From Saprospiraceae bacterium (lineage in GTDB: Bacteria > Bacteroidota > Bacteroidia > Chitinophagales > Saprospiraceae): a stretch of 62,597 nucleotides of DNA. The translations under genes were made by a program, and so were the position numbers. The notes under the pieces are model-generated. The model was given only the letters and a program-made list of their open reading frames with translations. It was not told where the DNA came from and ran no database searches. The DNA lies in NCBI GenBank assembly GCA_027488855.1, contig JAIYAV010000391.1, forward strand, positions 1-62,597. Direction: 5' to 3'. Below, in pieces: positions 5,443 through 56,611 of this stretch (positions are counted from its first letter, which is position 1; every line of letters starts with the position of its first letter).

Positions 5443-5563
5443 CTAAGGTGTAGCTTAGGTGCCTTAGGTTTCTTAGGTGGTGAAAAAGAAAAAAGCCCTG
5501 CGGAGCAGGGCAAAGTATTATTTCACCACCTAAGAAACCTGAGAAACCTTAGGGACACCTTAG
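5443..5563. repeat. Family C palindromic repeat, copy C1
   Basis: The 43-nt arms at 5443-5485 and 5521-5563 are imperfect inverted repeats made of CTTAGGT-type words; the inner 17 nt (TTTCTTAGGTGGTGAAA) are perfect and shared with copy C2. The loop holds a small hairpin, GCCCTGC-gga-GCAGGGC. It fills the gap between two convergent genes and may act as a two-way terminator. Confidence 0.9.
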
Positions 5564-11614: not shown

Positions 11615-12916
11615 ATGGGGATTGAAGATTTTGTACAAAAGAAGAAGTTGATTTCAGTCATAGGATTGGGGTACGTGGGTTTGCCATTGGCCCTGGTTTT
11701 GGCCAAAAAATTCCGGGTCATTGGTTTTGACATCAATGCCACTCGGGTGACTCAAATGCAAGCAGGGATCGATCCTTCGCAGGAACTTACTGCCGTTGCA
11801 TTTCAGGGAGCAGACATTCAGTTTACCCATCAGGTGGAAGATTTGCAACAGGCGCATTTTCACATTGTGGCTGTGCCAACCCCGATTGATGAGCACAATA
11901 ACCCCAATTTGACCCCTTTGCTCAAAGCCTCCCAAACCGTGGGCACGCAGTTGAAAAAGGGTGATTATGTGGTGTTTGAATCAACTGTTTACCCAGGATG
12001 TACTGAGGAAGACTGTGTACCTATTCTGGAACGGGAATCGGGTTTGAGTTTCGGACTGGACTTCAAAGTAGGTTATTCGCCAGAACGCATCAATCCTGGA
12101 GATAAGGAACATACCGTAGAGAAAATTCTCAAGGTAGTTTCCGGCAGTGATGATGAAGCGTGTGAGCTGATTGCTCAGGTGTATGGCAGCGTTATCGAAG
12201 CTGGAGTATACCGAGCCAGTTCCATCAAAGTGGCCGAAGCGGCCAAAGTGATCGAAAATACCCAGCGCGACCTCAACATCGCGTTTATGAATGAACTTTC
12301 GGTGATTTTTGACCGCATCGGCATCGATACCCGTGAGGTATTGGAAGCCGCCGGAACCAAGTGGAATTTTTTAAAATTCTACCCTGGTCTGGTGGGTGGG
12401 CATTGTATTGGCGTTGATCCTTATTACCTGTTGCACAAGTCGAAAGAATTGGGGTACAACCCACAGGTAATCACGAGTGGCCGCAAAATCAACGATGAGA
12501 TGCCGGCTTATGTGGCCAAGCGCCTCGTTCAAATGCTCATCCAAAAAGGCAAAAACCCCGGGCAATGCCGAGTATTGGTATTGGGGATTACCTTCAAGGA
12601 AAACGTGGCCGATATCCGCAACTCTAAAGTGGCCGATTTGGTCCGGGAGCTGCAACAGTTTTCGATCACCACCCATTTGGTAGACCCCTTCGCGTCTGCC
12701 GCTGAGGTGGCACATGAGTATAATTTGGTCCTGATGAGTGAACCCGAGGAAAATTACGACGCCGTCATCATTGCCGTAGCCCACCAGCAGTTTGTGGAGA
12801 TGAATCTGGAGGCCTTGCGCAAGTTGATGAATGGCAAACCATTGTTACTGGATCTCAAAGGGATTTATTCCCGTAAAACTGCAGATGAATTAAATATTGC
12901 CTATTGGCGGTTGTAA
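11615..12916 (+). CDS. Nucleotide-sugar 6-dehydrogenase (TviB/WbpA type)
   Basis: The 433-residue protein has the NAD motif VIGLGYVGLPLALVLA, VAVPTPIDEHNNPNL, ESTVYPGCTEE, YSPERINPGDKEHT and the catalytic cysteine in GGHCIGVDPYYL near residue 263. Proteins of this type oxidise C6 of UDP-N-acetylhexosamines to uronic acids in two NAD-dependent steps. Together with wecB and the aminotransferase it points to N-acetylated uronic acids in the product polymer. A GGAG motif lies a few bases before the ATG at 11615. Confidence 0.9.
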   Translation: MGIEDFVQKKKLISVIGLGYVGLPLALVLAKKFRVIGFDINATRVTQMQAGIDPSQELTAVAFQGADIQFTHQVEDLQQAHFHIVAVPTPIDEHNNPNLTPLLKASQTVGTQLKKGDYVVFESTVYPGCTEEDCVPILERESGLSFGLDFKVGYSPERINPGDKEHTVEKILKVVSGSDDEACELIAQVYGSVIEAGVYRASSIKVAEAAKVIENTQRDLNIAFMNELSVIFDRIGIDTREVLEAAGTKWNFLKFYPGLVGGHCIGVDPYYLLHKSKELGYNPQVITSGRKINDEMPAYVAKRLVQMLIQKGKNPGQCRVLVLGITFKENVADIRNSKVADLVRELQQFSITTHLVDPFASAAEVAHEYNLVLMSEPEENYDAVIIAVAHQQFVEMNLEALRKLMNGKPLLLDLKGIYSRKTADELNIAYWRL

Positions 12917-12966
12917 TAATATTCAATTCTCCCTCTAGGCTAAACACTCAGCTAAACAATGAACCC

Positions 12967-13494
12967 ATGCTTGACGCTTTAGAACCTCGCTGGTTTGCGG
13001 TATGCACCAGATACAAGCGAGAAAAATTGGTGAGCAAGTACTTGTGCGACAAGGGAATCAAGAGCTACTTGCCCTTGCAAAAGGTCACCCGTATGTATAC
13101 GCGCAAGATCAAAAAGGTTGAACTCCCACTAATCAACTGCTACATCTTTGTACAAATTGTCAAAGAGGAGTACGTACCCGTGCTCGAAATCCCCGATGTA
13201 ACGCATTTTGTCAAAATTGCCAAAGAGTTGATTGCAATTCCCGAAGTTGAAATTGACATCATGCGCCGCGTTACTGGCGAGATTGCCAATGTTGAGGTGG
13301 ATCAGGGGGTTTTTAAAATTGGCGAAGAGGTTGAGATCATCAGTGGCAGTTTGTTTGGCCTGCGGGGCAGGTTGTTGCAGGGTTTGGGCTCCAAAAACTT
13401 TGTGGTCGAGCTGGAAAACCTGGGCTATTCACTGCGCATGCAGATGGCTCCGGAAATTTTGCGGCCTTTGTCTACTAAGCGTGGAGCGGCTTAG
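12967..13494 (+). CDS. UpxY-family NusG-like antiterminator
   Basis: Starting at the ATG at 12967 the protein has 175 residues: RWFAVCTRYKREKLVSKYL (NGN domain), SYLPLQKVTRMYTRKIKKVELPLINCYIF, and a C-terminal KOW-like segment with GEEVEIISGSLFGLRGRLLQ. UpxY proteins bind RNA polymerase on one capsule operon and prevent early termination. A longer start at 12904 overlaps the upstream gene and adds unusual residues, so I prefer 12967. It is followed at once by hairpin A1, a plausible pause or termination point for it to act on. Confidence 0.85.
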   Translation: MLDALEPRWFAVCTRYKREKLVSKYLCDKGIKSYLPLQKVTRMYTRKIKKVELPLINCYIFVQIVKEEYVPVLEIPDVTHFVKIAKELIAIPEVEIDIMRRVTGEIANVEVDQGVFKIGEEVEIISGSLFGLRGRLLQGLGSKNFVVELENLGYSLRMQMAPEILRPLSTKRGAA

Positions 13495-13529: not shown

Positions 13530-13638
13530 GTTGAGAAGTTGAGAAGTTGAGAAGTTGAGGCTGCCGCAAGGACTTAGACATGGATATTGTCAAAATCGCT
13601 GCGGCAGCCTCAACTTCTCAACTTCTCAACTTCTCAAC
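13530..13638. repeat. Family A palindromic repeat, copy A1
   Basis: Arms at 13530-13568 and 13600-13638 are perfect 39-nt inverted repeats. The outer part is four copies of the word GTTGAGAA (the last shortened), the inner stem is GGCTGCCGCA, and the 31-nt loop at 13569-13599 contains GGACTTAGACA and GTCAAAATCGC. The outer words place TGA in all three frames on either strand reading inward. It lies between upxY and the epimerase gene. Confidence 0.95.
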
Positions 13639-13657
13639 CCCTTTATTTTCCAATGCA

Positions 13658-14710
13658 ATGAAACGTATCTTAGTGACCGGCGCAGCTGGTTTTATTGGTT
13701 TCCACTTATCCAAAAAACTGCTGGAACGCGGCGACGAAGTGGTAGGTCTGGACTGTCTGAACGACTATTACGATGTTGAGTTGAAATATGCCCGTTTGGC
13801 CCAATTGGGTATTGATCGTAGCCAAATTGAGGCGGGCGTTTTGTGTAAAAGCACCCAATTCCAATTTTCCTTGATTCAACTTCAATTGGAAGACCTGGCG
13901 GGCTTGGAAAAACTGTTTCAAACCAAAAAATTCGATGTAGTTGTCAATCTCGCCGCCCAGGCTGGAGTACGGTATAGTCTGATCAATCCACATGCCTACG
14001 TCAACAGCAACATTGTGGGTTTTGTCAACATCCTGGAATGTTGTCGGCACCAGCAAGTCCAGCACTTGGTGTACGCCAGCAGTTCCAGCGTGTATGGGCT
14101 GAATAGTGAGATGCCGTTTTCTACGGATCACAATGTGGATCACCCCGTTTCCTTGTACGCAGCCAGCAAAAAGAGCAACGAATTGATGGCCCATACTTAC
14201 AGCCATTTGTTTGGATTGCCCACTACGGGTTTGCGGTTTTTTACGGTATATGGCCCTTGGGGTAGGCCGGACATGGCGCTATTTTTGTTTACCAAAGCCA
14301 TTTTGGCCGGAGAACCCATCAAGGTGTTCAACCAGGGGCAAATGATTCGGGACTTCACGTACATCGATGATATTGTTGAAGGCGTCATCCGAGTGGCTGA
14401 CCGTCCTCCAGTGCCTAACCCTGACTGGAATCCGGCCATTGTAGATCCGGCCCATTCCAGCGCACCTTACCATTTGTACAACATTGGCAACAACCAGCCC
14501 GTTCAATTGGCGGAATTCATTGAAGCCATTGAAGAATCCCTGGGTAAAAAAGCCATTAAAGAACTTTTGCCCATGCAACCCGGTGATGTAGCAGCTACCT
14601 TTGCGGATGTGAGCAGCTTAGAAGCAGATACGGGTTACAAACCGGCCACCTCGGTGCAAACCGGGATTCAGCGTTTTATTGACTGGTACCGCTGGTATTA
14701 TCAAGCATAG
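13658..14710 (+). CDS. NAD-dependent UDP-glucuronate/UDP-sugar 4-epimerase
   Basis: From the ATG at 13658 the protein has 350 residues beginning [17 protein letters not shown]. It is an extended SDR with [15 protein letters not shown], the serine block ASSSSVYG, and the catalytic YAASK near residues 167-171; [17 protein letters not shown] is typical of UDP-glucuronate 4-epimerases (CapI/Gla type). It interconverts UDP-glucuronate and UDP-galacturonate or a related pair. The open frame extends upstream through repeat A1, but that part is repeat-derived and not likely coding. The stop codon overlaps the start of repeat D1 by one base. Confidence 0.87.
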
Positions 14711-14748
14711 GGCAATAAAAAATGAACAGTTATTTTTGCCCCACTACT
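14710..14748. repeat. Family D short palindromic repeat, copy D1
   Basis: The core GGGCAATAAAAAATGAAC followed by AGTTATTTTTGCCCC and ACTAC is a near-palindrome shared with D2, D3 and D4. It contains TATTTTTG at 14731-14738 in the direction of cpsB, whose start is at 14756, so this copy could carry a -7 box. Confidence 0.8.
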
Positions 14749-14755
14749 TAAGCGT

Positions 14756-15514
14756 ATGTTTGGAAAATTGTTCTCGCGCAGTTCAGCTAGCCATGCTACC
14801 CAGCCCAGCGACTTCTCGGTGCTGGGGATGGACATGCATTCACACCTCATCCCCGGGATTGACGATGGTGCCAAAACCATGGAAGAAAGTCTGGAACTGA
14901 TCCGAGGGCTCATCCAATTGGGTTATAGTGGTGCAATCACAACGCCCCACGTGATGGGCGATTATTATCCAAACACTGGGGTAATCATCCAAAACGGCTG
15001 GGAAGAACTGTGCCGATCCATCCGCCAGGCTGGTTTAAATTTTCGGCTGGAAGCCTCCGCTGAATACAACCTCGATAGCTATACTGCCGAATTGTTTGCA
15101 CAAGGGGACATTTTACCCATGCCCGGCAAACGGCTTTTGGTGGAATTGTCTTTTTTTGGGGCACCTCCCGATTTGGAAAACCGCATTTTCCAGTTGCGGC
15201 TTCAGGGGTATTTCCCCATTTTGGCCCACCCGGAACGTTACAGTTATTATCAGGGCAATCTCAGTGCACTGGAACGCATCCGCGATTTGGGCTGCGAGTT
15301 ACAGGTGAACATTCTCTCCCTTACCGGGCACTATGGCCCTCAAGTAGCCAAATGGGCCAAAACCCTGCTTGACAAAGACATGGTGAGCTACCTGGGGACG
15401 GATATGCACCATGCCGGACATCTGCAGGAATTGCAAGCCGCGCTCCGGCAAAGGGACATTTTGCGGATTTTGCAACGCCATACTTTTAAAAACCAAGACC
15501 TACTCAATTTATAA
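14756..15514 (+). CDS. CpsB/CapC-type tyrosine-protein phosphatase (PHP fold)
   Basis: The 252-residue protein has the PHP metal-binding start DMHSHLIPGIDDGAKTMEESL near residue 26, ITTPHVMGDYYPN, EASAEYNLD, ILAHPERYSYY and a late GTDMHHAGH. This is the pattern of manganese-dependent capsular phosphotyrosine phosphatases such as CpsB and YwqE. It should remove phosphate from the C-terminal tyrosine cluster of the Wzc kinase encoded downstream, resetting the export machinery. It ends 5 bases before wecB. Confidence 0.9.
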   Translation: MFGKLFSRSSASHATQPSDFSVLGMDMHSHLIPGIDDGAKTMEESLELIRGLIQLGYSGAITTPHVMGDYYPNTGVIIQNGWEELCRSIRQAGLNFRLEASAEYNLDSYTAELFAQGDILPMPGKRLLVELSFFGAPPDLENRIFQLRLQGYFPILAHPERYSYYQGNLSALERIRDLGCELQVNILSLTGHYGPQVAKWAKTLLDKDMVSYLGTDMHHAGHLQELQAALRQRDILRILQRHTFKNQDLLNL

Positions 15515-15519
15515 TCCAC

Positions 15520-16638
15520 ATGAAAATCCTCAACATCGTTGGCGCTAGGCCCAATTTTATGAAGGTTGCTCCCTTGCACCGCGCTTTTCAAGCCCGGCCA
15601 GAACTGGAGTCCAAAATTGTACACACTGGGCAACATTACGACGCCAAAATGAGCGACGTGTTTTTTACCCAGCTCGAATTGCCCACTCCCGATTATTTTT
15701 TGGGCGTAGGTGGGGGATCACATACCCAGCAAACCGCCAAAATCATGTTGGCCTTTGAAGAGGTTTTGCAAAAAGAACAACCCGACCTAGTTTTGGTGGT
15801 GGGCGATGTCAATTCTACCATTGCTTGTGCATTGGTGGCCGTAAAAATGAACATCCCGGTAGCCCACGTGGAAGCGGGATTGCGCAGCGGCGACCGGGGC
15901 ATGCCCGAAGAAATCAACCGGATTTTGACCGATAGCATTTCCGATTATTTGTTTGTTACAGAGATGAGCGGCATGATCAATCTGGCCAAAGAAAATGTGC
16001 CCGATGAGCGCATCTTTTTTGTTGGAAATTGTATGATTGATTCGCTGGTGCATTACCAGGCTCGGGCGCAGCAGTTGAGCTACAGCGATGTATTGCCCGA
16101 TAAACCTGCCATTCAGGATCAGAGTTATGTCCTGATGACCATGCACCGCCCTTCCAATGTTGACTTTGTGGAGGGCCTGACTTCTATACTCAGCATCATT
16201 GAGGATGCCGTACAATACCGCCAGGTGGTGTTCCCGGTGCATCCACGCACCCTCAAAAATTTAGAGAACTTTGGCTTACTGGAGCGTTTTGAGCGCATTC
16301 CGAATCTAATTACTACGGAGCCGTTGGGGTACCTGGAATTTTTGCGATTGATGGGAGGCGCGGCCCTGGTGATCACAGATTCGGGCGGTATTCAGGAGGA
16401 AACGACTTTTTTACAAACGCCCTGCCTGACTTTCCGCAGCAGCACCGAACGCCCCGTTACTGTAGACTTAGGCACCAACACCCTGCTAGCCGACCTCAAC
16501 CCCGAAACTGTCCATCAACACATGCTGGAAGTACTGGAAGGTCGTGGAAAAAAAGGCGGTATTCCCCCGCTTTGGGATGGTCGGGCAGCGGAGCGAATAG
16601 CAGATATTTTAATTGATATTTTTGAACATAAACGATAA
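15520..16638 (+). CDS. wecB: UDP-N-acetylglucosamine 2-epimerase (non-hydrolysing)
   Basis: The 372-residue protein starts MKILNIVGARPNFMKVAPL and has HTGQHYDAKMS, VVGDVNSTIACAL, HVEAGLRSGDRGMPEEINR, TMHRPSNVD and the UDP-binding TDSGGIQEETTFLQTPCLT. It interconverts UDP-GlcNAc and UDP-ManNAc. With the 6-dehydrogenase upstream it could supply UDP-ManNAcA for the polymer. Its TAA stop is 3 bases before repeat A2. Confidence 0.93.
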   Translation: MKILNIVGARPNFMKVAPLHRAFQARPELESKIVHTGQHYDAKMSDVFFTQLELPTPDYFLGVGGGSHTQQTAKIMLAFEEVLQKEQPDLVLVVGDVNSTIACALVAVKMNIPVAHVEAGLRSGDRGMPEEINRILTDSISDYLFVTEMSGMINLAKENVPDERIFFVGNCMIDSLVHYQARAQQLSYSDVLPDKPAIQDQSYVLMTMHRPSNVDFVEGLTSILSIIEDAVQYRQVVFPVHPRTLKNLENFGLLERFERIPNLITTEPLGYLEFLRLMGGAALVITDSGGIQEETTFLQTPCLTFRSSTERPVTVDLGTNTLLADLNPETVHQHMLEVLEGRGKKGGIPPLWDGRAAERIADILIDIFEHKR

Positions 16639-16641
16639 TTT

Positions 16642-16757
16642 GGTTGAGAAGAGTTGAGAAGTTGAGGAGTTGAGGCTACCGCGAGGGACTTAGACAAGGG
16701 CATTGTCAAAATCGCTCGCGGTAGCCTCAACTCCTCAACTCCTCAACCTTCTCAACC
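16642..16757. repeat. Family A palindromic repeat, copy A2
   Basis: Arms at 16642-16684 and 16716-16757 differ by one indel and one or two substitutions. The words are GTTGAGAA and GTTGAGGA; the inner stem is GGCTACCGCGA. The 31-nt loop at 16685-16715 matches the A1 loop at 27 of 31 positions. It separates wecB from wza. Confidence 0.95.
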
Positions 16758-16774
16758 CCTCAAAACATTCATCC

Positions 16775-17581
16775 ATGCGGATTCTGTACTTCTTTACCCT
16801 ACTACTCTTGACTTGCTCCTGTGTGCAACACAAGCAATTGGTCAATTTTAACCAAGGGCCGCTGCCCATAAATAAAGCCGAAGCCATCCTCAATTCCATA
16901 GACCTGAGTATTCAGCCCGAGGATTTGTTGCAAATCAATGTGAGTAGTTTTGAACCGGACGCGATTAGACCCTTCGTCCCTGAAGCGGGCGGAGCGGGGG
17001 GCCAGCAAAACAATGCCATGATGCAACAAAGTATGGGAGGAACTGGAGTCAATTCCTTGGAGCTGTTCACGGGCTATTTTGTAGATCGCGCTGGGTACAT
17101 CGACTTTCCGGTCATTGGCCGCGTAAAAGTAGGTGGTTTAACCCTGGGCGTGGCACACGATACCATTCTGAACCGCATTTTGCCCATCGTGTCCGATGCC
17201 GTGGTGAGTCTACGTTTTTTGAACCTCAAAATCACGATGTTGGGTGAGGTCGCTCAGCCTGGTTTGATCCGCATTTCGAATAAAAGAGTGACCTTGCTGG
17301 AAGCCATCGGGATGGCGGGCGATTTGACCCCCTATGCCGACCGCACCAACATCCTACTCGTACGAGAAAAAGACGGAGAACGCCAATACGTTTATATGAA
17401 TTTGCAGGATCCGGCCATCTTTGCTTCGAAGTTTTTTTACCTGGAACAAAATGACTTCATTTACATTCAGCCCACCAAAGCCAAGGTGGGGGGCATCACC
17501 GACCAAACCAGTCGTATTTTCACCTTTGGCTCTGCAGGCTTATCATTGATCACCTTGATCATTGCCATTTTTAGACGATGA
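16775..17581 (+). CDS. wza: Polysaccharide export outer-membrane lipoprotein
   Basis: From ATG 16775 the protein has 268 residues. The N terminus MRILYFFTLLLLTCSC is a lipoprotein signal with the lipidated cysteine at 14 or 16. A Poly_export domain (LSIQPEDLLQINVSS through GRVKVGGLTLG) is followed by an SLBB-type part (ITMLGEVAQPGLIRISNKRVTLLEAIGMAGDLTPYADRT, given in pieces) and a C-terminal hydrophobic helix (LSLITLIIAIFRR). It should form the outer-membrane export channel with Wzc. Its stop overlaps the next start as ATGA. An upstream start inside repeat A2 is rejected. Confidence 0.9.
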   Translation: MRILYFFTLLLLTCSCVQHKQLVNFNQGPLPINKAEAILNSIDLSIQPEDLLQINVSSFEPDAIRPFVPEAGGAGGQQNNAMMQQSMGGTGVNSLELFTGYFVDRAGYIDFPVIGRVKVGGLTLGVAHDTILNRILPIVSDAVVSLRFLNLKITMLGEVAQPGLIRISNKRVTLLEAIGMAGDLTPYADRTNILLVREKDGERQYVYMNLQDPAIFASKFFYLEQNDFIYIQPTKAKVGGITDQTSRIFTFGSAGLSLITLIIAIFRR

Positions 17582-18726
17582 GTTCCAAAATCCATATCGT
17601 TGGGTCCGGTTTGACGGGGGCTACCATTGCGCGTTTGTTGCACGATCAGGGGCATGACGTCAGCGTGTTTGAGCGCCGTGCCCAAGTGGGTGGGAACGTG
17701 CACGACTTTGTGCATCCTTCGGGCATTCGAGTGCACAGTTATGGGCCACACTATTTTCGGACCAATTCGGAGGCGATTTGGGCTTATGTGCAACGCTTTG
17801 GATCTTTTTTTCCTTATCGCGCCATAGTGAAATCCTTTGTTGACGGACAATACGAGAATTGGCCGATCTCCGCTGCTTATTTGCGGCGAATTGGTGCAGC
17901 GCAATACCTGAATACGCGCATATCTTCTCCGGCGGCACTTCCAGCCCGCAATTTTGAAGCAGCAGCCCTTCAGCTCATGCCCGTGGAAGTGTATGAAAAA
18001 TTTGTCAAAAATTATACGTCCAAACAATGGGGCATAGCCCCCCGGCAGCTCAGTGCTGATTTGGTCAAACGTTTTGAAGTGCATCACGACGACGATCCAC
18101 ACCTGACTCCTGGCTACCGATGGCAAGGCATCCCTGCGGATGGTTATGCTCAGTGGATGAGCAAAATGCTGGAGGGAATAAAAGTACACCTCGGAGTAGA
18201 TTATTTGCAGCAGCAGGCATTTGAGCCCGCTACCTATACCGTATTTACCGGGGCGATTGATGCTTTTTTTGGCTTTGATCTGGGGCGTTTGCACTATCGT
18301 GGGCAGCAGCGCGAACACGAGTACCTGTCCGCTACGGCCTGCTACCAGCCCTGTGCACAAGTCAACAACCCAGCGCTCGAAAACGGCGCACATATCCGCA
18401 CTTTGGAGTGGAAACACCTGATGCCAACTGCGCAACAAGCCGAGATTCATGGCACCGTCATTACCCGCGAAACCCCCTTTAGTCCCCAAGACATTGATCA
18501 ATATGAATACCCCTTTCCGGATAGAATCAACCAGCAACTTTACCAACAATACCGCCAACGCGCCCAGAGAATCCCCAATTTACTCATCTGTGGCCGCTTG
18601 GGTGAATACCGTTATTATGACATGGATCAGGCCATTGGCCGGGCAATGATGTTGGTACAGAAGCAAATACTCCCAAGCTTATCCGCAAATAACAGCCGAA
18701 TATTTTCAAACCTTTCGTACTTTTGA
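17578..18726 (+). CDS. glf: UDP-galactopyranose mutase
   Basis: The 382-residue flavoprotein begins SKIHIVGSGLTGATIARLL and has FERRAQVGGNVHDF, HSYGPHYFRT, FVKNYTSKQWG, PADGYAQWM and the late LLICGRLGEYRYYDMDQAIGRAM (given as the FAD-binding C-terminal block). It converts UDP-galactopyranose to UDP-galactofuranose. The presence of this gene suggests galactofuranose, or a related furanose, in the exopolysaccharide. It overlaps wza by 4 bases and is 3 bases from wzc, so the three are translationally close. Confidence 0.88.
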   Translation: MSSKIHIVGSGLTGATIARLLHDQGHDVSVFERRAQVGGNVHDFVHPSGIRVHSYGPHYFRTNSEAIWAYVQRFGSFFPYRAIVKSFVDGQYENWPISAAYLRRIGAAQYLNTRISSPAALPARNFEAAALQLMPVEVYEKFVKNYTSKQWGIAPRQLSADLVKRFEVHHDDDPHLTPGYRWQGIPADGYAQWMSKMLEGIKVHLGVDYLQQQAFEPATYTVFTGAIDAFFGFDLGRLHYRGQQREHEYLSATACYQPCAQVNNPALENGAHIRTLEWKHLMPTAQQAEIHGTVITRETPFSPQDIDQYEYPFPDRINQQLYQQYRQRAQRIPNLLICGRLGEYRYYDMDQAIGRAMMLVQKQILPSLSANNSRIFSNLSYF

Positions 18727-18729
18727 ACA

Positions 18730-21150
18730 ATGGATACTGCACAATCTACACCCTACAACCATTCAGGCGGAACACCTACTCCCAGTGGAAACAAGGAGTT
18801 GGACATCAAATACTTCTTTTTCCTCTTCTTGCGCAATTGGTACTGGTTGTTACTGGGCCTCATGATCGGGTACAGCATTGCCTGGGTCAAGTTGCGGTAT
18901 GCAACCAATATCTACCAGGTAGGGGGCAGTATTTTGTTGGAAGACAACGCCAAAAGTAACATCTCCGAAGAAATCATCACCGAAAAACTGGGACTTGAGC
19001 AGGAGTCCAATGTGGATGACCAAATTCAGGTGCTCAAGTCAACGACCATGATGCGGCGGGTGGTGGATTCACTCAATCTCAATGTGACCTATTATACGGT
19101 GGGACGGGTCAAAACCAGTGAGATGTACGGCCCCAACTGCCCGGTGATGCTCACTGGCGCTTTGCCAAAAGTATTGGCCTATGGCACTTCGCTGCGAGTT
19201 CGCACGCTGAACAATTACGATTTTACGCTGGTAAAAGGGGAAAACGATACCCTGACCTGCCATTACGATACTCCATTTGTCCTCAATCAAATCAAATATA
19301 CGGTAAGCCGACAAGCTAGCGCGGTGCCTGGAACAGAGTTTTTGATCCGCGTCAATTACCCTGAAGGTACTGCCGCAGAATACGCAGAAAAACTGGTGAT
19401 TCAGCCTGTGCCCGGCTCCAACGTGCTCAATCTCAGCATGCGTGACCCCGTGGCTGAAAAATGCATTGACATCTTCAAAACCCTTGTCAATGAATTTGAC
19501 CGGAGCCAGGTAGAAATCAAAAATGAGTCTGGTCGCAAAACCCTTGAATTTATTGATGAGCGCTTAGTCTTCATCACCGACGAGCTCTACAACGTTGAAA
19601 AAGACGTAGAAGGATACAAACGCAGCCGAGACCTGCCCGTGGCCATCGAAAGTAAAGCCAGCGAATACCTTAGCAAAGTATCTACTGCCGATGAACAATT
19701 GATGGAGCTTGATCTGCGCCTAACGATGTTGGATGCTATCGAAAAAAAGCTCAATGACCCCGCTGCCCAAAACGAATCCCTGCCACTAAGTTCGGAGATA
19801 TTGGCCAGCAGTGCTGCGGCCGAGCTCATTAAGGCCTATAATGAGATTGTTCAGGAGCGCAAAAAACTGTCGGCCACCGCAGGCCCTACCAATCCAGCCT
19901 TAAAATCATTGGATAAAAAGGTGGAGGAGTTGCGTAAACCTTTGTTCGACAATTTTATTGTCATTCGCCGCGAGCTCAACGACCGGCGTGCCCAGGTCAG
20001 CAAACGTTTAAGACCGATTGAAAATAAAATTGATGCCATTCCCACTTACGAGCGGGAGCTGCTGCAGATTTTGCGCCAGCAGCAAATCAAGGAGCAACTT
20101 TTTTTGTTTTTGTTGCAAAAACGGGAAGAAACGGCCTTGAGTGTTGCTGCCCAGGTGTCCAATACCCGCATCCTCAACCCGCCAGTTGGGCAGGGATTGG
20201 TGGCTCCAGACCGCCGCCGAACCTTCACCTTATATTTGTTCATGGGCTTTTTGCTGCCGGGGCTTGTGGCCTTTTTATTTGATTATTTCAACAATCGGAT
20301 TTACGACGAAAACGATATTCGCCGCCATACCAATGCGCCATTTTTGGGGGGAATCATGCAATCTAGTGCGGGGAAATCCATTGTAGTCAATCGCAGTAGT
20401 CGCTCGGCCATTGCAGAGATGTTCCGGATGTTGCGCACCAATTTGCATTATCTATCCAAGGGCGAAAAGAAGCAGGTCGTCCTTGTCAGCTCCAGTGTGA
20501 GTGGTGAGGGCAAAAGTTTCATCACCATCAACATGGGCATCAGCATTTCACTTTCCGGCCAAAAAACCCTCTTGTTGGGATTGGATATCCGCAGACCGAA
20601 ATTGAGCCGCTATTTGACCGGGCATCAGGCTGAGCGAGGAGTAACCAACTACTTGGTAGGACAAGCTTCTTTGGACGACCTCATCAAACCTTTGCCGGAT
20701 CATCCTCTGGTAGATTACCTGGATTGTGGCCCCATTCCGCCCAACCCCGCCGAATTGTTGATGAGTGATGCTACCCGTGATTTGTTTATAGAGTTGCGCA
20801 AGCGTTACCAATACATCATCGTAGATACTGCTCCTGTCGGGCTGGTCACCGATGCCCTTTTGCTCAGCCAACACATTGACCAAACCGTCATTGTCACCCG
20901 TTTTGGGATGAGCCGCACTCCGTTTTTGCGTATGGTGCAGGACATTTACAGCAACAACAAATTGCCTCAGGTGGGGATCGTCCTCAACGGGCTCAAGGCC
21001 CGGGCAGGGTACGGCTACGGCTACGGTTATGGCTACAGTTCTTCTTATGGCTACAGCTATGGCCAGGGGTATGGTAGCGAATACTTTGACAAGGAGCCAC
21101 GCCGCCGCTGGTCTTGGCGCCGTATTCTTAAACGTATCCGCTCAAAATAA
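18730..21150 (+). CDS. wzc: Wzc-type polysaccharide co-polymerase / tyrosine autokinase
   Basis: The 806-residue protein has an N-terminal Wzz domain with a membrane helix (FFFLFLRNWYWLLLGLMIG), a long periplasmic coiled-coil region (about residues 250-480), a second helix (FTLYLFMGFLLPGLVAFLF) and a cytoplasmic BY-kinase domain with Walker A SSSVSGEGKSF near residue 588, Walker A' LLLGLDIRRP and Walker B YIIVDTAPVG. The C terminus (about residues 760-785) is a tyrosine cluster of GYGY repeats, the autophosphorylation tail. It controls polymer length and export with Wza; CpsB should dephosphorylate it. Confidence 0.93.
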   Translation: MDTAQSTPYNHSGGTPTPSGNKELDIKYFFFLFLRNWYWLLLGLMIGYSIAWVKLRYATNIYQVGGSILLEDNAKSNISEEIITEKLGLEQESNVDDQIQVLKSTTMMRRVVDSLNLNVTYYTVGRVKTSEMYGPNCPVMLTGALPKVLAYGTSLRVRTLNNYDFTLVKGENDTLTCHYDTPFVLNQIKYTVSRQASAVPGTEFLIRVNYPEGTAAEYAEKLVIQPVPGSNVLNLSMRDPVAEKCIDIFKTLVNEFDRSQVEIKNESGRKTLEFIDERLVFITDELYNVEKDVEGYKRSRDLPVAIESKASEYLSKVSTADEQLMELDLRLTMLDAIEKKLNDPAAQNESLPLSSEILASSAAAELIKAYNEIVQERKKLSATAGPTNPALKSLDKKVEELRKPLFDNFIVIRRELNDRRAQVSKRLRPIENKIDAIPTYERELLQILRQQQIKEQLFLFLLQKREETALSVAAQVSNTRILNPPVGQGLVAPDRRRTFTLYLFMGFLLPGLVAFLFDYFNNRIYDENDIRRHTNAPFLGGIMQSSAGKSIVVNRSSRSAIAEMFRMLRTNLHYLSKGEKKQVVLVSSSVSGEGKSFITINMGISISLSGQKTLLLGLDIRRPKLSRYLTGHQAERGVTNYLVGQASLDDLIKPLPDHPLVDYLDCGPIPPNPAELLMSDATRDLFIELRKRYQYIIVDTAPVGLVTDALLLSQHIDQTVIVTRFGMSRTPFLRMVQDIYSNNKLPQVGIVLNGLKARAGYGYGYGYGYSSSYGYSYGQGYGSEYFDKEPRRRWSWRRILKRIRSK

Positions 21151-21155
21151 TTTTA

Positions 21156-21163
21156 TAGTTTTG
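21156..21163 (+). promoter_or_regulatory. Candidate -7 box TAGTTTTG
   Basis: A TAnnTTTG match just after the wzc stop and before repeat D2. It could start a transcript covering the kinase-RapZ fusion and wzx, but the following palindrome would lie in its leader. Confidence 0.3.
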
Positions 21164-21170
21164 CGACTGA

Positions 21171-21290
21171 GTAGTGGGGCAAAAATAAGTGTTCATTTTT
21201 TTTGAGCCAAAGGATTAGAGAAGACACTTGAAATGAACCGTTTACTTATCTAATCCTTTGGCAAAATGAACACTTATTTTTTTATCGCCC
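21171..21290. repeat. Family D repeat, copy D2, split by a nested palindrome
   Basis: The left part (21171-21200) reads GTAGTGGGGCAAAAATAAGT and on to GTTCATTTTT; the right part ends TTTTATCGCCC at 21290. These are the two ends of one D element. Between them sits another inverted repeat (GCCAAAGGATTAGA near 21215 and its complement near 21250) plus a second GAACACTTATTTTT block. It looks like a D element opened by an insertion or duplication. Confidence 0.85.
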
Positions 21291-21315
21291 TTAAGTTAAG
21301 AAACAACGTACTGGA

Positions 21316-22767
21316 ATGAGTCCACAAAAAATTGAAGCAGCGCTAGCCGATTTATTTGAGCAGTGGGCGGGTGAAAGCCCCAAATTGATTTTGCCTTTGG
21401 CCCCATCAGGTTCCGAGCGGATTTATTACCGCTTACAGGGCTCCGAACGGGCCGCCATCGGCACCTATAGCCCCAATGATCGGGAGAGCAGGGCTTTTTT
21501 GGAATACAGCCGCCATTTTCACGGCAAATCCTTACCTGTGCCCGAAATCTATGCCGAAGATTTGAACACCAAGGTCTATTTGCAAGAAGATCTGGGCTCA
21601 ACGACTTTATATAGTTTTTTGATCCAAAACGACGATTATTTTCCCGATTACCTCGCCCAAATCTACAAGCGGGTGGTGGAACAATTGGCCCGCTTACAAA
21701 TCATTGGCGGGAAAGATTTGAGCTACGAGCACAGTTATCCCAAATCCGCCTTCGACAAGGAGGCCATGTTTTGGGATTTGAACTATTTCAAATACCATTT
21801 CCTGATGCTCACCAAGGTGCGTTTTGATGAGCAAGCCCTGGAAAAAGATTTTCACGCGCTGGCTGATTATTTGCTTACTGCCGATAACCAATACTTCCTG
21901 TTTCGCGATTTTCAGTCGCGCAACATCATGATCAAAAGTGGTGAGCCGTACTTTATTGACTACCAGGGTGGACGCCGCGGTGCCCTTCAATACGATTTGG
22001 CCTCTTTGTTGTTCCAGGCCAAAGCCAACATACCAGCAGACATTCGTCAGGAAATTTTACAGCATTACATCAAAGTGGCTGGTGAATTGACGCCCATTGA
22101 TCCGGACAGGTTCATTGAGCATTACAATGGCTACGTGTTGATCCGCAACATTCAGGTCTTGGGGGCCTATGGTTTCCGGGGACTGTTTGAGCGCAAAGAG
22201 CATTTTCTCAAAAGTATCCCGCATGCCTTGCGCAACATCAAGGGACTTTTGGAAAACTGGCAGTTGCCCATCGAACTTCCCCATCTGCGGGAGGCGATGC
22301 AGCGCATTTTGGATTCCAAAAAATTCGAACCTTTCAATAAAATTAAAAGCAGTACCAGTCTACTTACGGTAGTGGTCAACAGCTTTTCGTACCATGCTGG
22401 CGGTGTTCCAGAAGATACCAGTGGCAACGGCGGTGGTTTTGTATTTGATTGTCGCTTCGTGCACAACCCAGGGCGCTATGAACCGTACAAAAAATTGACT
22501 GGCCGCGATGAATCGGTCATCAATTTCCTCAAGCAGCACAGCACCATGGACGAATACCTGCACAACGTATTCCGCATTGTGGATACCGCGGTGGAAGACT
22601 ACATCGAGCGCAGCTTCATGAACCTCAGCGTCAACTTTGGTTGCACCGGAGGCCAGCACCGCTCCGTATACGCCGCCGACGCCCTTGCCAAGCACCTGAA
22701 GGAGAAGTACGGCATTAAGGTGGTCTTGCACCATGTGGAGCAGGAGAAGAAGAATTGGGAAAACTAA
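21316..22767 (+). CDS. Phosphotransferase (AmgK/APH-like) fused to a RapZ C-terminal domain
   Basis: The 483-residue protein has two parts. Residues 1-335 are an aminoglycoside/choline-kinase fold with LYLQEDLGSTTLYSFL-like hinge, the catalytic block LFRDFQSRNIMIK and metal-binding FIDYQGGRRGALQYDLASLL, close to AmgK sugar kinases. Residues 350-483 match the C-terminal domain of the RNase adaptor RapZ: VNSFSYHAGGVP, FDCRFVHNPGRY, GRDESVINFL, VNFGCTGGQHRSVYAADAL. The RapZ N-terminal P-loop domain is absent. RapZ C domains bind glucosamine-6-phosphate, so the fusion may tie amino-sugar phosphorylation to sensing; this is inference. Confidence 0.82.
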   Translation: MSPQKIEAALADLFEQWAGESPKLILPLAPSGSERIYYRLQGSERAAIGTYSPNDRESRAFLEYSRHFHGKSLPVPEIYAEDLNTKVYLQEDLGSTTLYSFLIQNDDYFPDYLAQIYKRVVEQLARLQIIGGKDLSYEHSYPKSAFDKEAMFWDLNYFKYHFLMLTKVRFDEQALEKDFHALADYLLTADNQYFLFRDFQSRNIMIKSGEPYFIDYQGGRRGALQYDLASLLFQAKANIPADIRQEILQHYIKVAGELTPIDPDRFIEHYNGYVLIRNIQVLGAYGFRGLFERKEHFLKSIPHALRNIKGLLENWQLPIELPHLREAMQRILDSKKFEPFNKIKSSTSLLTVVVNSFSYHAGGVPEDTSGNGGGFVFDCRFVHNPGRYEPYKKLTGRDESVINFLKQHSTMDEYLHNVFRIVDTAVEDYIERSFMNLSVNFGCTGGQHRSVYAADALAKHLKEKYGIKVVLHHVEQEKKNWEN

Positions 22768-22775
22768 TTTATTAG

Positions 22776-22874
22776 AGATGAAAGATGAGAGATGAAAGAG
22801 GCTACCGCAGGGACTTAGACAAGGTTATCGTCAAAAACGCTGCGGTAGCCTCTTTCATCTCTCATCTTTCATCT
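22776..22874. repeat. Family A palindromic repeat, copy A3
   Basis: Arms at 22776-22809 and 22841-22874 are perfect 34-nt inverted repeats. The outer words are GATGAAA/GATGAGA, unlike A1 and A2, but the inner stem GGCTACCGCA and the 31-nt loop at 22810-22840 (with GGGACTTAGACAAGG and GTCAAAAACGC) are the same family. It lies between the kinase-RapZ gene and wzx. Confidence 0.95.
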
Positions 22875-41271: not shown

Positions 41272-41363
41272 TCACAAAGAAACCACAAAGGGGCACAGAG
41301 GACACAAAGCGACGTCAACGTTTAGCTTTGTGTCCTCTGTGCCCCTTTGTGGTTTCTTTGTGA
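41272..41363. repeat. Perfect palindromic repeat (family F)
   Basis: Arms at 41272-41310 and 41325-41363 are perfect 39-nt inverted repeats made of TCACAAAGAAA/CCACAAAGG-type words; an extra word TCACAAAGAAA precedes the left arm. The loop is only 14 nt. It lies between the convergent GH3 and crp genes and could terminate transcription from both sides. Confidence 0.92.
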
Positions 41364-42033: not shown

Positions 42034-42148
42034 CTTAGGTGATTCCTTGAGTGCCTTCGGTTTCTTAGGTGGTGAAAGAGTACCCTGCTACGCAGGTTTT
42101 TTATTTTCACCACCTAAGAAACTTAAGGCACTTAAGGAATCACCTAAG
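42034..42148. repeat. Family C palindromic repeat, copy C2
   Basis: The 44-nt arms at 42034-42077 and 42105-42148 match with three mismatches and share TTTCTTAGGTGGTGAAA with C1. The loop has CCTGC-tac-GCAGG followed by a T-run on the plus strand. It lies between yeeE (42169) and crp, which run in the same direction. Confidence 0.92.
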
Positions 42149-48774: not shown

Positions 48775-48797
48775 CTTTCGTTTGGTTTTTTCGCAAT

Positions 48798-48834
48798 GGG
48801 CGATAAAAAATGAACACTTATTTTTGCCCACTAC
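48798..48834. repeat. Family D short palindromic repeat, copy D3
   Basis: GGGCGATAAAAAATGAACAC followed by TTATTTTTGCCC and ACTAC, nearly identical to D1. It is 24 bases upstream of the barrel gene start, so it probably lies in the promoter or leader of that gene. Confidence 0.85.
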
Positions 48835-48950: not shown

Positions 48951-49104
48951 AATGACGAATTTTTCGAATGACGAATGACGAATATACCGGAAGCGTCAAA
49001 GATTAAGGGTAAGTTCCAGATTGGAGTTCTATTTATTCGAATTCATATGCAAATCTTGAGGGCAACGCTCCAAATTCGTCATTCGTCATTCGAAAAATTC
49101 GTCA
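48951..49104. repeat. Family B palindromic repeat, copy B3 (inverted relative to B1/B2)
   Basis: The arms 48953-48983 and 49074-49104 are perfect 31-nt inverted repeats of the TGACGAA word. The 90-nt loop matches the reverse complement of the B1 loop, for example in CAAATCTTGAGGGCAA. The right arm supplies the TGA stop of the exonuclease gene (49102-49104). The rest of the 327-base gap holds D3 and no gene. Confidence 0.93.
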
Positions 49105-52246: not shown

Positions 52247-52384
52247 AATGAAAAGTGAAAAGTGAAAAATGAAAAGTGAAAAATGAAGAATAGCACACTG
52301 TCTGTTCGCAAAGCGCGTGATCAGCATTTTAAGCCAATTCGACAGGGTGTATTATTTTTCATTTTTCACTTTTCATTTTTCACT
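52247..52384. repeat. Family E palindromic repeat, copy E2
   Basis: The left arm ending near 52292 and the right arm at 52351-52384 pair over 32 or more bases with one mismatch; the words are AGTGAAAA and AATGAAA. An inner stem CACACTGTC/GACAGGGTG continues the fold. The right arm supplies the TGA stop of rpoZ (52380-52382). It lies between rpoZ and coaBC, which are co-directional. Confidence 0.9.
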
Positions 52385-56466: not shown

Positions 56467-56503
56467 AAAGGCGAATCGGAAAACTTTCCGGTTCGCCTTT
56501 TTC
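56467..56503 (+). terminator. Intrinsic terminator after tsf
   Basis: GGCGAATCGGAAAA pairs with TTTCCGGTTCGCC (one mismatch) and is followed by five T. It ends the rplM-rpsI-rpsB-tsf operon, so pyrH has its own promoter. Confidence 0.85.
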
Positions 56504-56509
56504 ATTTGT

Positions 56510-56537
56510 GGGCGATAAAAAAATAAGTTTTCATTTT
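56510..56537. repeat. Family D repeat, copy D4 (partial)
   Basis: GGGCGATAAAAAAATAAGTT followed by TTCATTTT matches one side of the D element. It lies 75 bases before pyrH and just after the tsf terminator. Confidence 0.65.
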
Positions 56538-56611
56538 AGTGAAGGAACGCCATTTGGCGTTTTTCATTAAAATTGTTATCTTCGATTTTGAATTAAAATC
56601 AGCTTTGGCGC

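Follow-up and report, generated by a model that had tools for sequence, protein, structure and literature searches.

Template switching by DNA polymerase has been reported to homogenise the arms of inverted repeats and to invert the spacers between them (PMC8604942), as well as to create and maintain hairpins with perfect stems (PMC8794818). In this article we describe a family of hairpins that resembles such loci, three members of which (A1, A2, and A3) lie between genes in a contig of 62,597 nucleotides (nt) from a Saprospiraceae bacterium (GenBank assembly GCA_027488855.1, contig JAIYAV010000391.1). This contig, analysed whole and called "the window" below, is one of the 422 contigs of a draft genome of 8.37 Mb (G000), which we compared with four other members of its genus (G001, G002, G003, and G004). 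Like the template-switch loci and quasipalindromes in the passages cited from those two papers, our hairpins combine homogenised arms with perfect stems without stepwise compensation, and their tips, opposite at some orthologous sites, may be inverted spacers. Those passages treat individual loci, whereas the present family has about 100 dispersed copies with one core, arms made of tandem short words, and dialects of those words.

The closest natural parallel that we found is the P6b stem-loop of the Nostoc tRNA-Leu(UAA) intron. As described in the passages cited (PMC4476775), its arms consist of complementary 7-nt repeat motifs, as the word arms do here, and the whole stem-loop has repeatedly been swapped, at a fixed place and with a similar secondary structure, for one of another repeat class. 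It differs in being one site within a group I intron with two classes, and those passages describe no dispersed shared tip.

Repetitive extragenic palindromes (REPs) and bacterial interspersed mosaic elements, with their REP-associated tyrosine transposases (RAYTs), are also high-copy extragenic palindromes with imperfect stems, found between co-directional or convergent genes (passages of PMC3733652 and PMC6006769); the latter source also mentions structures of atypical form next to genes of subclass 2.6, most of them in Bacteroidetes. The present family is REP-like in being high in copy (115 loci), extragenic, and mostly 3' of genes, but it differs in having no GT[AG]G foot, no core found beside its Y1 genes, and long, copy-specific outer arms of tandem words.

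Intergenic stem-loops are likewise what the repeat families of 40 bacterial genomes have in common (PMC2267715), although the portion cited defines those families by sequence models and not as recombining layers. The heptanucleotide repeats of Geobacter and Beggiatoaceae (PMC2700814, PMC4679880) are likewise tandem arrays of short words, commonly 7 nt long, scattered between genes; the TAACTGA sets are nearly all direct repeats, and the portions cited do not describe matching arms around a shared core. One Geobacter figure legend mentions repeat sites drawn folded back on themselves, which is said here of the legend and not of the drawing. A search of the open-access literature on REP/RAYT systems, long inverted repeats in Bacteroidetes, and nested or template-switched bacterial repeats returned no account of this hairpin family among the titles and opening lines of abstracts listed.

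Copy Number and Distribution

Our preferred reading, to which we give slightly better than even chances, is that A1 to A3 are copies of a genus-limited, high-copy, modular family of DNA palindromes situated mainly at gene 3' ends, and that their arms are matched by template switching together with exchange between copies. The original prediction, made from the sequence of the window, had described a family of three, and each of the three hairpins lies where it had been placed. Their inner stem, however, occurs at loop spacing at 115 loci in G000, compared with 1 for the reversed pattern; some of the loci listed have other tips and a few look like chance. The same search gave 164 loci in G001, 70 in G002, 1 in G003, and 180 in G004, with 1 for the reversed control in each. 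With the core as query, BLAST returned at least 79 matches in G000, on both strands (best 40 of 183 candidates scored), and a 49-nt covariance model at least 150 (best 150 of 8037 candidates), which were counted on both strands because the core is nearly palindromic.

So far, sequence searches suggest that the family is limited to one genus. The core model matched 0 of 55 genomes outside the genus and, at an E-value of 1e-4 with stricter filters, 4 of 60 genomes, all among the five of the genus. An exact core pattern, run over a genome contig collection that may omit the genome itself and its near relatives, was found in two metagenome-assembled genomes only. The metagenome-assembled genomes JAIXOO (Saprospiraceae) and JAAFHQ (Chitinophagales) appear to correspond to G004 and G001, respectively, to judge by stretches of identical sequence. 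An exact pattern for a GTGAAAA-word hairpin matched 1 of 395 genomes of the phylum, namely G000 itself, in a draw that did not include G001 to G004. Viral contigs gave 0 matches to one exact pattern and plasmids none to the A1 region, so a phage or plasmid vehicle was rejected.

The density of long hairpins per 10 kb was 1.39 in G000 (122.7 kb), 1.84 in G002 (59.7 kb), and 2.15 in the G004 contig orthologous to the window, against 0.20 in G003 (2 in 98.6 kb) and 0.22 in ten stretches from other genera (180 kb); the stretches from G000, G002, G003, and the other genera were not chosen for cores. This split suggests a hairpin-building factor that is specific to the clade or was lost in G003. G003 has few hairpins despite its 9 Y1_Tnp genes and its SbcD.

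Long hairpins favour gene 3' ends, a preference measured on all long hairpins and not on the core family alone, with gene orientation taken from a purpose-made open reading frame caller. Set against gaps of at least 60 bp, they numbered 69/130 for convergent, 133/365 for co-directional, and 12/123 for divergent gaps in G000, and 26/44, 47/111, and 10/36, respectively, in G004, counts that are biased because most stretches from these two genomes were picked for holding cores. Divergent gaps are avoided strongly in G000 and less so in G004.

Three Nested Layers

Three layers are nested in each copy: arms of tandem short words on the outside, the inner stem GCTRCCGC/GCGGYAGC within them, and a tip that is an imperfect palindrome. 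The conserved inner stem of the original prediction is present in A1, A2, and A3, although its spelling is GCTRCCGC and not GGCTRCCGC; the shared motifs GGACTTAGACA and GTCAAAAWCGC also occur in all three, and the outer arms do consist of GTTGAGAA words in A1 and A2 and of GATGAAA words in A3. At strictly perfect pairing, A1 has 39 bp and a loop of 31 nt, A2 26 bp and 29 nt, and A3 35 bp and 29 nt. A loop of exactly 31 nt, as predicted, therefore holds for A1 and for the aligned core in register, but not for A2 and A3 when pairing is strict. By eye, the arms of A2 extend past the perfect stem through one mismatch and one indel. Such hairpins number 15 in the window and 0 in each of five block-shuffled windows.

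What had been regarded as a conserved 31-nt loop is actually an imperfect palindrome, approximately GCGAcTTaGACAA-n5-TTGTCaAAaTCGC, that can itself be reversed or replaced. Its halves pair with each other at 12/15 positions in A2 and at 9/14 in both A3 and A1 (A1 by eye). Some loci read the core reversed, so that GATTTTGAC comes 5' and CTAAGTC 3', and other tips are found within the same inner stem, for example tips with GGTCACTGAGCGTAGCCGAAGTGC or with CACACTTTCACACGCACAC. In an alignment of 26 of 29 cores (three identical to others were dropped), two tip positions are unpaired in most copies and the core shows no covariation: 84.9% of cells pair, compared with 87.9% in shuffles, and 3 cells are changed on both sides, compared with 13.1.

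In G000, cores of one type are enclosed by GTTGAG, GTTGAA, GATGA, or GTGAAA arms, and in G001 by AATGACG arms; some G002 loci have longer arms that are not tandem. Mean normalised tip alignment scores were 0.67 between GTTGAA and GTTGAG elements, 0.67 within GTTGAG, 0.83 within GATGA, and 0.54–0.60 for GTGAAA. The original prediction regarded a core without a stem as evidence against captured arms. In the G000 stretches, 99 pattern matches comprised 11 chance matches and 88 genuine cores; 85 of the 88 have matching outer arms (three of the 85 offset by about 1 base) and 3 have none, so that the prediction very nearly withstands this check. For this reading, the 22 lowest-scoring rows were inspected and the remainder accepted by score, with no purine filter.

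Of 357 hairpins in stretches of G000 and G004, 198 have a purine-rich (>0.6) 5' arm and 1 a pyrimidine-rich (<0.4) one, an asymmetry that is equal on both strands. By eye, many arm words from several families seem to hold TGA on the 5' arm; recurring at a period not divisible by three, such words would place stop codons in all frames.

Matched Arms and Word Dialects

The claim that both arms change together while the core stays was borne out on a larger scale. The same word family stands on both arms in 84 of 92 G000 elements, where permutations gave a mean of 28.8 and a maximum of 44, and in 39 of 40 G004 elements (mean 31.8, maximum 37). The elements used here and for word spacing were filtered for purine-rich arms and have 60-nt flanks, a choice that drops armless cores.

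Within a family, GTTGAG and GTTGAA arms are more alike at their own locus than between loci, as in quasipalindromes, and the gap shrinks away from the core. For the GTTGAG arms of G004, own-locus and other-locus identities in successive 8-nt bins were 0.94/0.82, 0.75/0.54, 0.63/0.47, 0.53/0.45, and 0.39/0.37; at 33–40 nt, an own-locus excess was left for GTTGAA arms only (p 0.02). The spacing of the words differs between species in the manner of a dialect, with 8 nt in 179 of 212 cases in G000 and 9–10 nt in 173 of 208 in G004.

Turnover at Orthologous Sites

Synteny of the window region extends to G004, G001, and G002, in which the flanks of A1 are 91/91%, 88/86%, and 78/74% identical, respectively. 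At A1, the gap measures 46 nt in G004 and 22 nt in G001, with no such hairpin in either. This looks like an empty site, yet we rejected the idea of a fixed insertion that duplicates its target: in G001 and G004 the short gap differs along its entire length, so that no junction could be defined.

At A2, the outer junctions are nearly common to G000, G004, and G001, while the words and the tip differ; G002 has GTTGAAAA words and a different loop. At A3, where G000 has GATGAAA words and the core, G004 has GTGAAAA words and a different loop, G001 has GATGAGT words around a tiny loop that lacks the core, and G002 has AGCTGATC-like words. GATGAGT, which also occurs at L166:13252 in G004, is a close variant of GATGAGA and was not counted as another family. 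For further sites of this kind, 35 comparisons were listed and 107 directed comparisons computed, of which a part was inspected. The original prediction also held that finding the same outer words at all core copies in related genomes would speak against it, and at many shared sites the outer words are different, so the prediction withstands this check.

Hairpin presence is itself conserved. Across orthologous gaps of G000 and G004, a hairpin is found in both genomes at 17, in G000 only at 6, in G004 only at 12, and in neither at 47 (odds ratio 11.1, Fisher p 1.4e-5). Without divergent gaps the table reads 16/6/10/40, and without core-bearing gaps the association is weaker (6/5/8/47, p 0.008). 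The other pairs show the same trend but offer too few gaps for significance: 2/4/1/15 (p 0.17) for G000/G002, 4/3/2/12 (p 0.12) for G000/G001, 2/2/0/7 (p 0.11) for G004/G002, and 4/4/2/10 (p 0.16) for G004/G001. In the 17 shared gaps, median hairpin identity is 0.64 between flanks that are 92.7% identical, compared with 0.54 for unrelated hairpin pairs; these values are lowered because they were computed on ungapped hairpins, some of them cut short, and unrelated pairs were handled alike.

Some sites have kept the tip and changed the words. L101:7272 and its G004 counterpart L143 share a like tip (0.91) with a common oddity, and G004 L125 has an identical tip to G001 L094 with 9/10-nt instead of 8-nt words. 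The word GAGATGG is on both arms in G004 L130 and on one arm in the orthologous G001 L082, within 32 nt of the core. Among 15 orthologous core-core pairs, orientated by their fixed flanks, 10 have a best tip identity of at least 0.82, of which 4 are in the same orientation, 5 in the opposite, and 1 is ambiguous; at an identity of at least 0.88, 4 are the same and 4 opposite. L107:9752 and L066 differ by an exact 33-nt tip inversion.

Mechanism and Alternatives

Under our preferred reading, the hairpin would extrude during replication and DNA polymerase would switch template, writing one arm from the other, from the tip outward. Such switching may keep the arms matched, carry word changes to both sides, and sometimes flip the tip, while slippage could alter the number of words. 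Exchange or replacement among the roughly 100 dispersed copies would then spread the word dialect of a species and occasionally replace a whole hairpin by one of another word family. Evidence for such exchange or replacement between copies comes from nested and mosaic elements. Arm pairing would need no RNA function for its upkeep.

Several observations weigh against this reading. The arm-to-arm copying by template switching of the original prediction fits the homogenised arms and the opposite tips, but the dialect and the word-family swaps could not be produced by switching within a locus alone, so exchange or replacement between copies is also needed. One such swap is found at L173:6050 in G000 compared with L124, between flanks 99/98% identical. 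GATGA arms show clear locus-specific symmetry only in the innermost 8 nt, and past the innermost rank, in G000 and G004, word spacing agrees between the two arms no better than the dialect would lead one to expect; the small G001 set (11 elements) exceeds the dialect expectation at ranks 0 and 2. Some orthologous hairpins are mostly conserved (L131 vs L103, and the terminator-like L173:7358). As for the opposite tips, one pair (L172 vs L092, identity 0.82) is weak, all five pairs lie between draft assemblies, and several (L107, L152, and L168) are near the family consensus, so that these may have arisen by fresh copying in the opposite orientation instead of by inversion in place. The comparisons are between the present sequences of four species, with few three-way sites, and so give differences between species and not the direction or number of events.

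A doubtful but substantial competitor is that hairpin-for-hairpin replacement dominates, whole or nested inner elements being inserted, recombined, and displaced with only a minor part for arm-to-arm copying. It would account for different word families at one site between G000 and G004 flanks of 94–99% identity (A3, L173:6050, and L173:8295) and between G000 and G002 flanks of 80% (L109:7283), for the presence of tips from other families within one and the same inner stem, for a 125-nt repeat that occupies the hairpin loop at one orthologous site (L107:13246 vs L066), and for the finding that nearly every core is the apex of a matched pair of arms; where opposite tips are close to the family consensus, they could be fresh copies. 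Unchanged outer junctions around altered words at A2 in G000, G004, and G001, and the shared odd tip with altered words at L101 and L143, look instead like internal rewriting, and no target-site duplication could be defined at A1, the one candidate empty site inspected closely, in an analysis whose integrase search was limited to Y1_Tnp. We think it unlikely that the hairpins are functional RNA elements, such as terminators or stabilisers of mRNA 3' ends, whose arms co-vary by compensatory selection. Their position at gene 3' ends and their conserved presence at G000/G004 orthologous gaps are what such an element would lead one to expect, but avoidance of promoters, or tolerance alone, would equally give rise to the 3' bias. 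G-U pairs were not in excess over A-C mismatches on the transcribed strand in the 180 co-directional hairpins of the 357 (109 vs 120; binomial p 0.51 against 1:1 and p 3.7e-9 against 2:1), a comparison made with no positive control, nor among the 76 elements of the core family taken by themselves (55 vs 51). A T-run of 4 within 15 nt was not enriched, with 28/180 after and 28/180 before co-directional hairpins and 18 and 15 of 95 for convergent ones, and an Rfam search of the window gave no match. With no T-tract enrichment, no G-U excess, core covariation below that of shuffles, and no Rfam match, an intrinsic terminator or RNA element was rejected.

Movement by a RAYT/TnpA-REP (HuH tyrosine) transposase would suit dispersed, intergenic, high-copy hairpins with recurring mismatches in a genome with 13 Y1_Tnp genes, but we hold it to be very improbable. 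Y1_Tnp genes (13 in G000, 3 in G001, 7 in G002, 9 in G003, and 6 in G004) do not track core presence, G003 having 9 with cores not above control. No core lies within 1.5 kb of any of the 13 G000 genes in the sequence available, the nearest being 3.4 kb away, although a contig end is less than 1.5 kb away for 5 of the 13. An unpaired GT[AG]G (or CGTC) foot was not found in the copies listed, where the foot of the hairpin is the word arm and GTAG lies within the paired inner stem GCGGTAGC. RAYT as the cause was rejected on the Y1_Tnp counts and because no core was seen beside a Y1 gene. For 6 of the 13 G000 genes (L216, L217, L218, L220, L221, and L188), some other hairpin (arm score of at least 13; for example, GCCTCCAGCTTTAGCTGGTGG and GGCTGCCCGGCGGGCAGCTATCT) is present at a distance of up to 1.5 kb, a point that can be cited for the RAYT explanation and one that suggests that ordinary REP/RAYT systems may coexist with word-arm hairpins. 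Loss of SbcCD was also rejected as a cause: SbcD is above the family cut-off in G000, G002, G003, and G004 and a weak match only in G001 (86% complete), in a search that covered SbcD and not SbcC. Least credible of all is an assembly artefact, in which short-read assemblers mis-solve palindromes and so yield matched arms and flipped tips. In its favour, the assemblies of G000, G001, and G004 are drafts, contig ends hold several of the copies, and the opposite tips are all between drafts; but G002, in 4 contigs, has the same architecture and also differs at A2 and A3, and hairpins of 100–115 nt are shorter than ordinary reads.

The Three Hairpins and Their Surroundings

Positions of the layers of A1, A2, and A3 in the window
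Feature	Position	Strand	Basis
A1 5' outer arm, GTTGAGAA words	13530..13559	+	hairpin pairing
A1 core: inner stem GCTGCCGC/GCGGCAGC and imperfectly palindromic tip	13560..13608	+	covariance-model search
A1 3' outer arm, reverse complement of the A1 5' arm	13609..13638	+	hairpin pairing
A2 5' outer arm, GTTGAGAA/GTTGAGGA words	16642..16674	+	hairpin pairing
A2 core: inner stem GCTACCGC/GCGGTAGC, GA/TC extension, and tip	16675..16725	+	covariance-model and inner-stem searches
A2 3' outer arm; outermost words with 9-nt spacing as in G004	16726..16757	+	pairing and G004 comparison
A3 5' outer arm, GATGAAA/GATGAGA words	22776..22800	+	hairpin pairing
A3 core	22801..22849	+	covariance-model search
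A3 3' outer arm; more words continue to about 22883	22850..22874	+	pairing and comparison with G004, G001, and G002

The six genes adjoining A1 to A3 have the Pfam names NusG-like, Epimerase, UDP-GlcNAc 2-epimerase, Poly_export, APH/RapZ-C, and Polysacc_synt. Most of these names are related to polysaccharides, and the predicted polysaccharide cluster is thus a fair reading of them; its link to the hairpins is incidental, as the family is genome-wide. The NusG-like gene (12904-13494) is directly upstream of A1, in parallel with capsule operons that have dedicated antiterminators.

Further long hairpins are found in the window at 1-122, 1215-1371, 5443-5563, 41272-41363, 42034-42148, 48953-49104, and 52261-52384, with words such as AATGACG, TTAGGTG, CACAAAG, and GTGAAAA. 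At the site beginning at 5443, G004 too has a TTAGGTG-word hairpin, which differs in details.

A separate dispersed repeat of about 125 nt is present at 21167-21294, with related pieces near 14705-14772, 48793-48829, and 56498-56546. Among the matches listed, it has many copies at 81–98% identity in G001, G002, and G004 and a few in G003; in the corresponding gap of G004, G001, and G002 it is either missing or reduced. Its sequence is well kept, in contrast to the rewritten hairpins.

Conclusions

We tentatively entertain a broader possibility: the palindromes of this clade may be a self-propagating class of DNA that has no transposase of its own, in which template switching at replication, acting inside single copies and from one copy to another, would write layered hairpins at gene 3' ends, make them symmetrical, turn them round, place them inside each other, and exchange them. 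If this is true, each species gains its own vocabulary of stem words while the positions of the hairpins persist. Long matched stems are usually taken to indicate an RNA function because both arms change together. Here, some 100 copies of one core provide an internal control, in which the arms change together without the G-U signature of selection on RNA, and the family could serve as a caution for covariation-based RNA discovery. With tips that are opposite at about half of the comparable orthologous sites, and different hairpins between flanks more than 90% identical, the clade could be a natural system in which to study how inverted repeats are built and made uniform by template switching.

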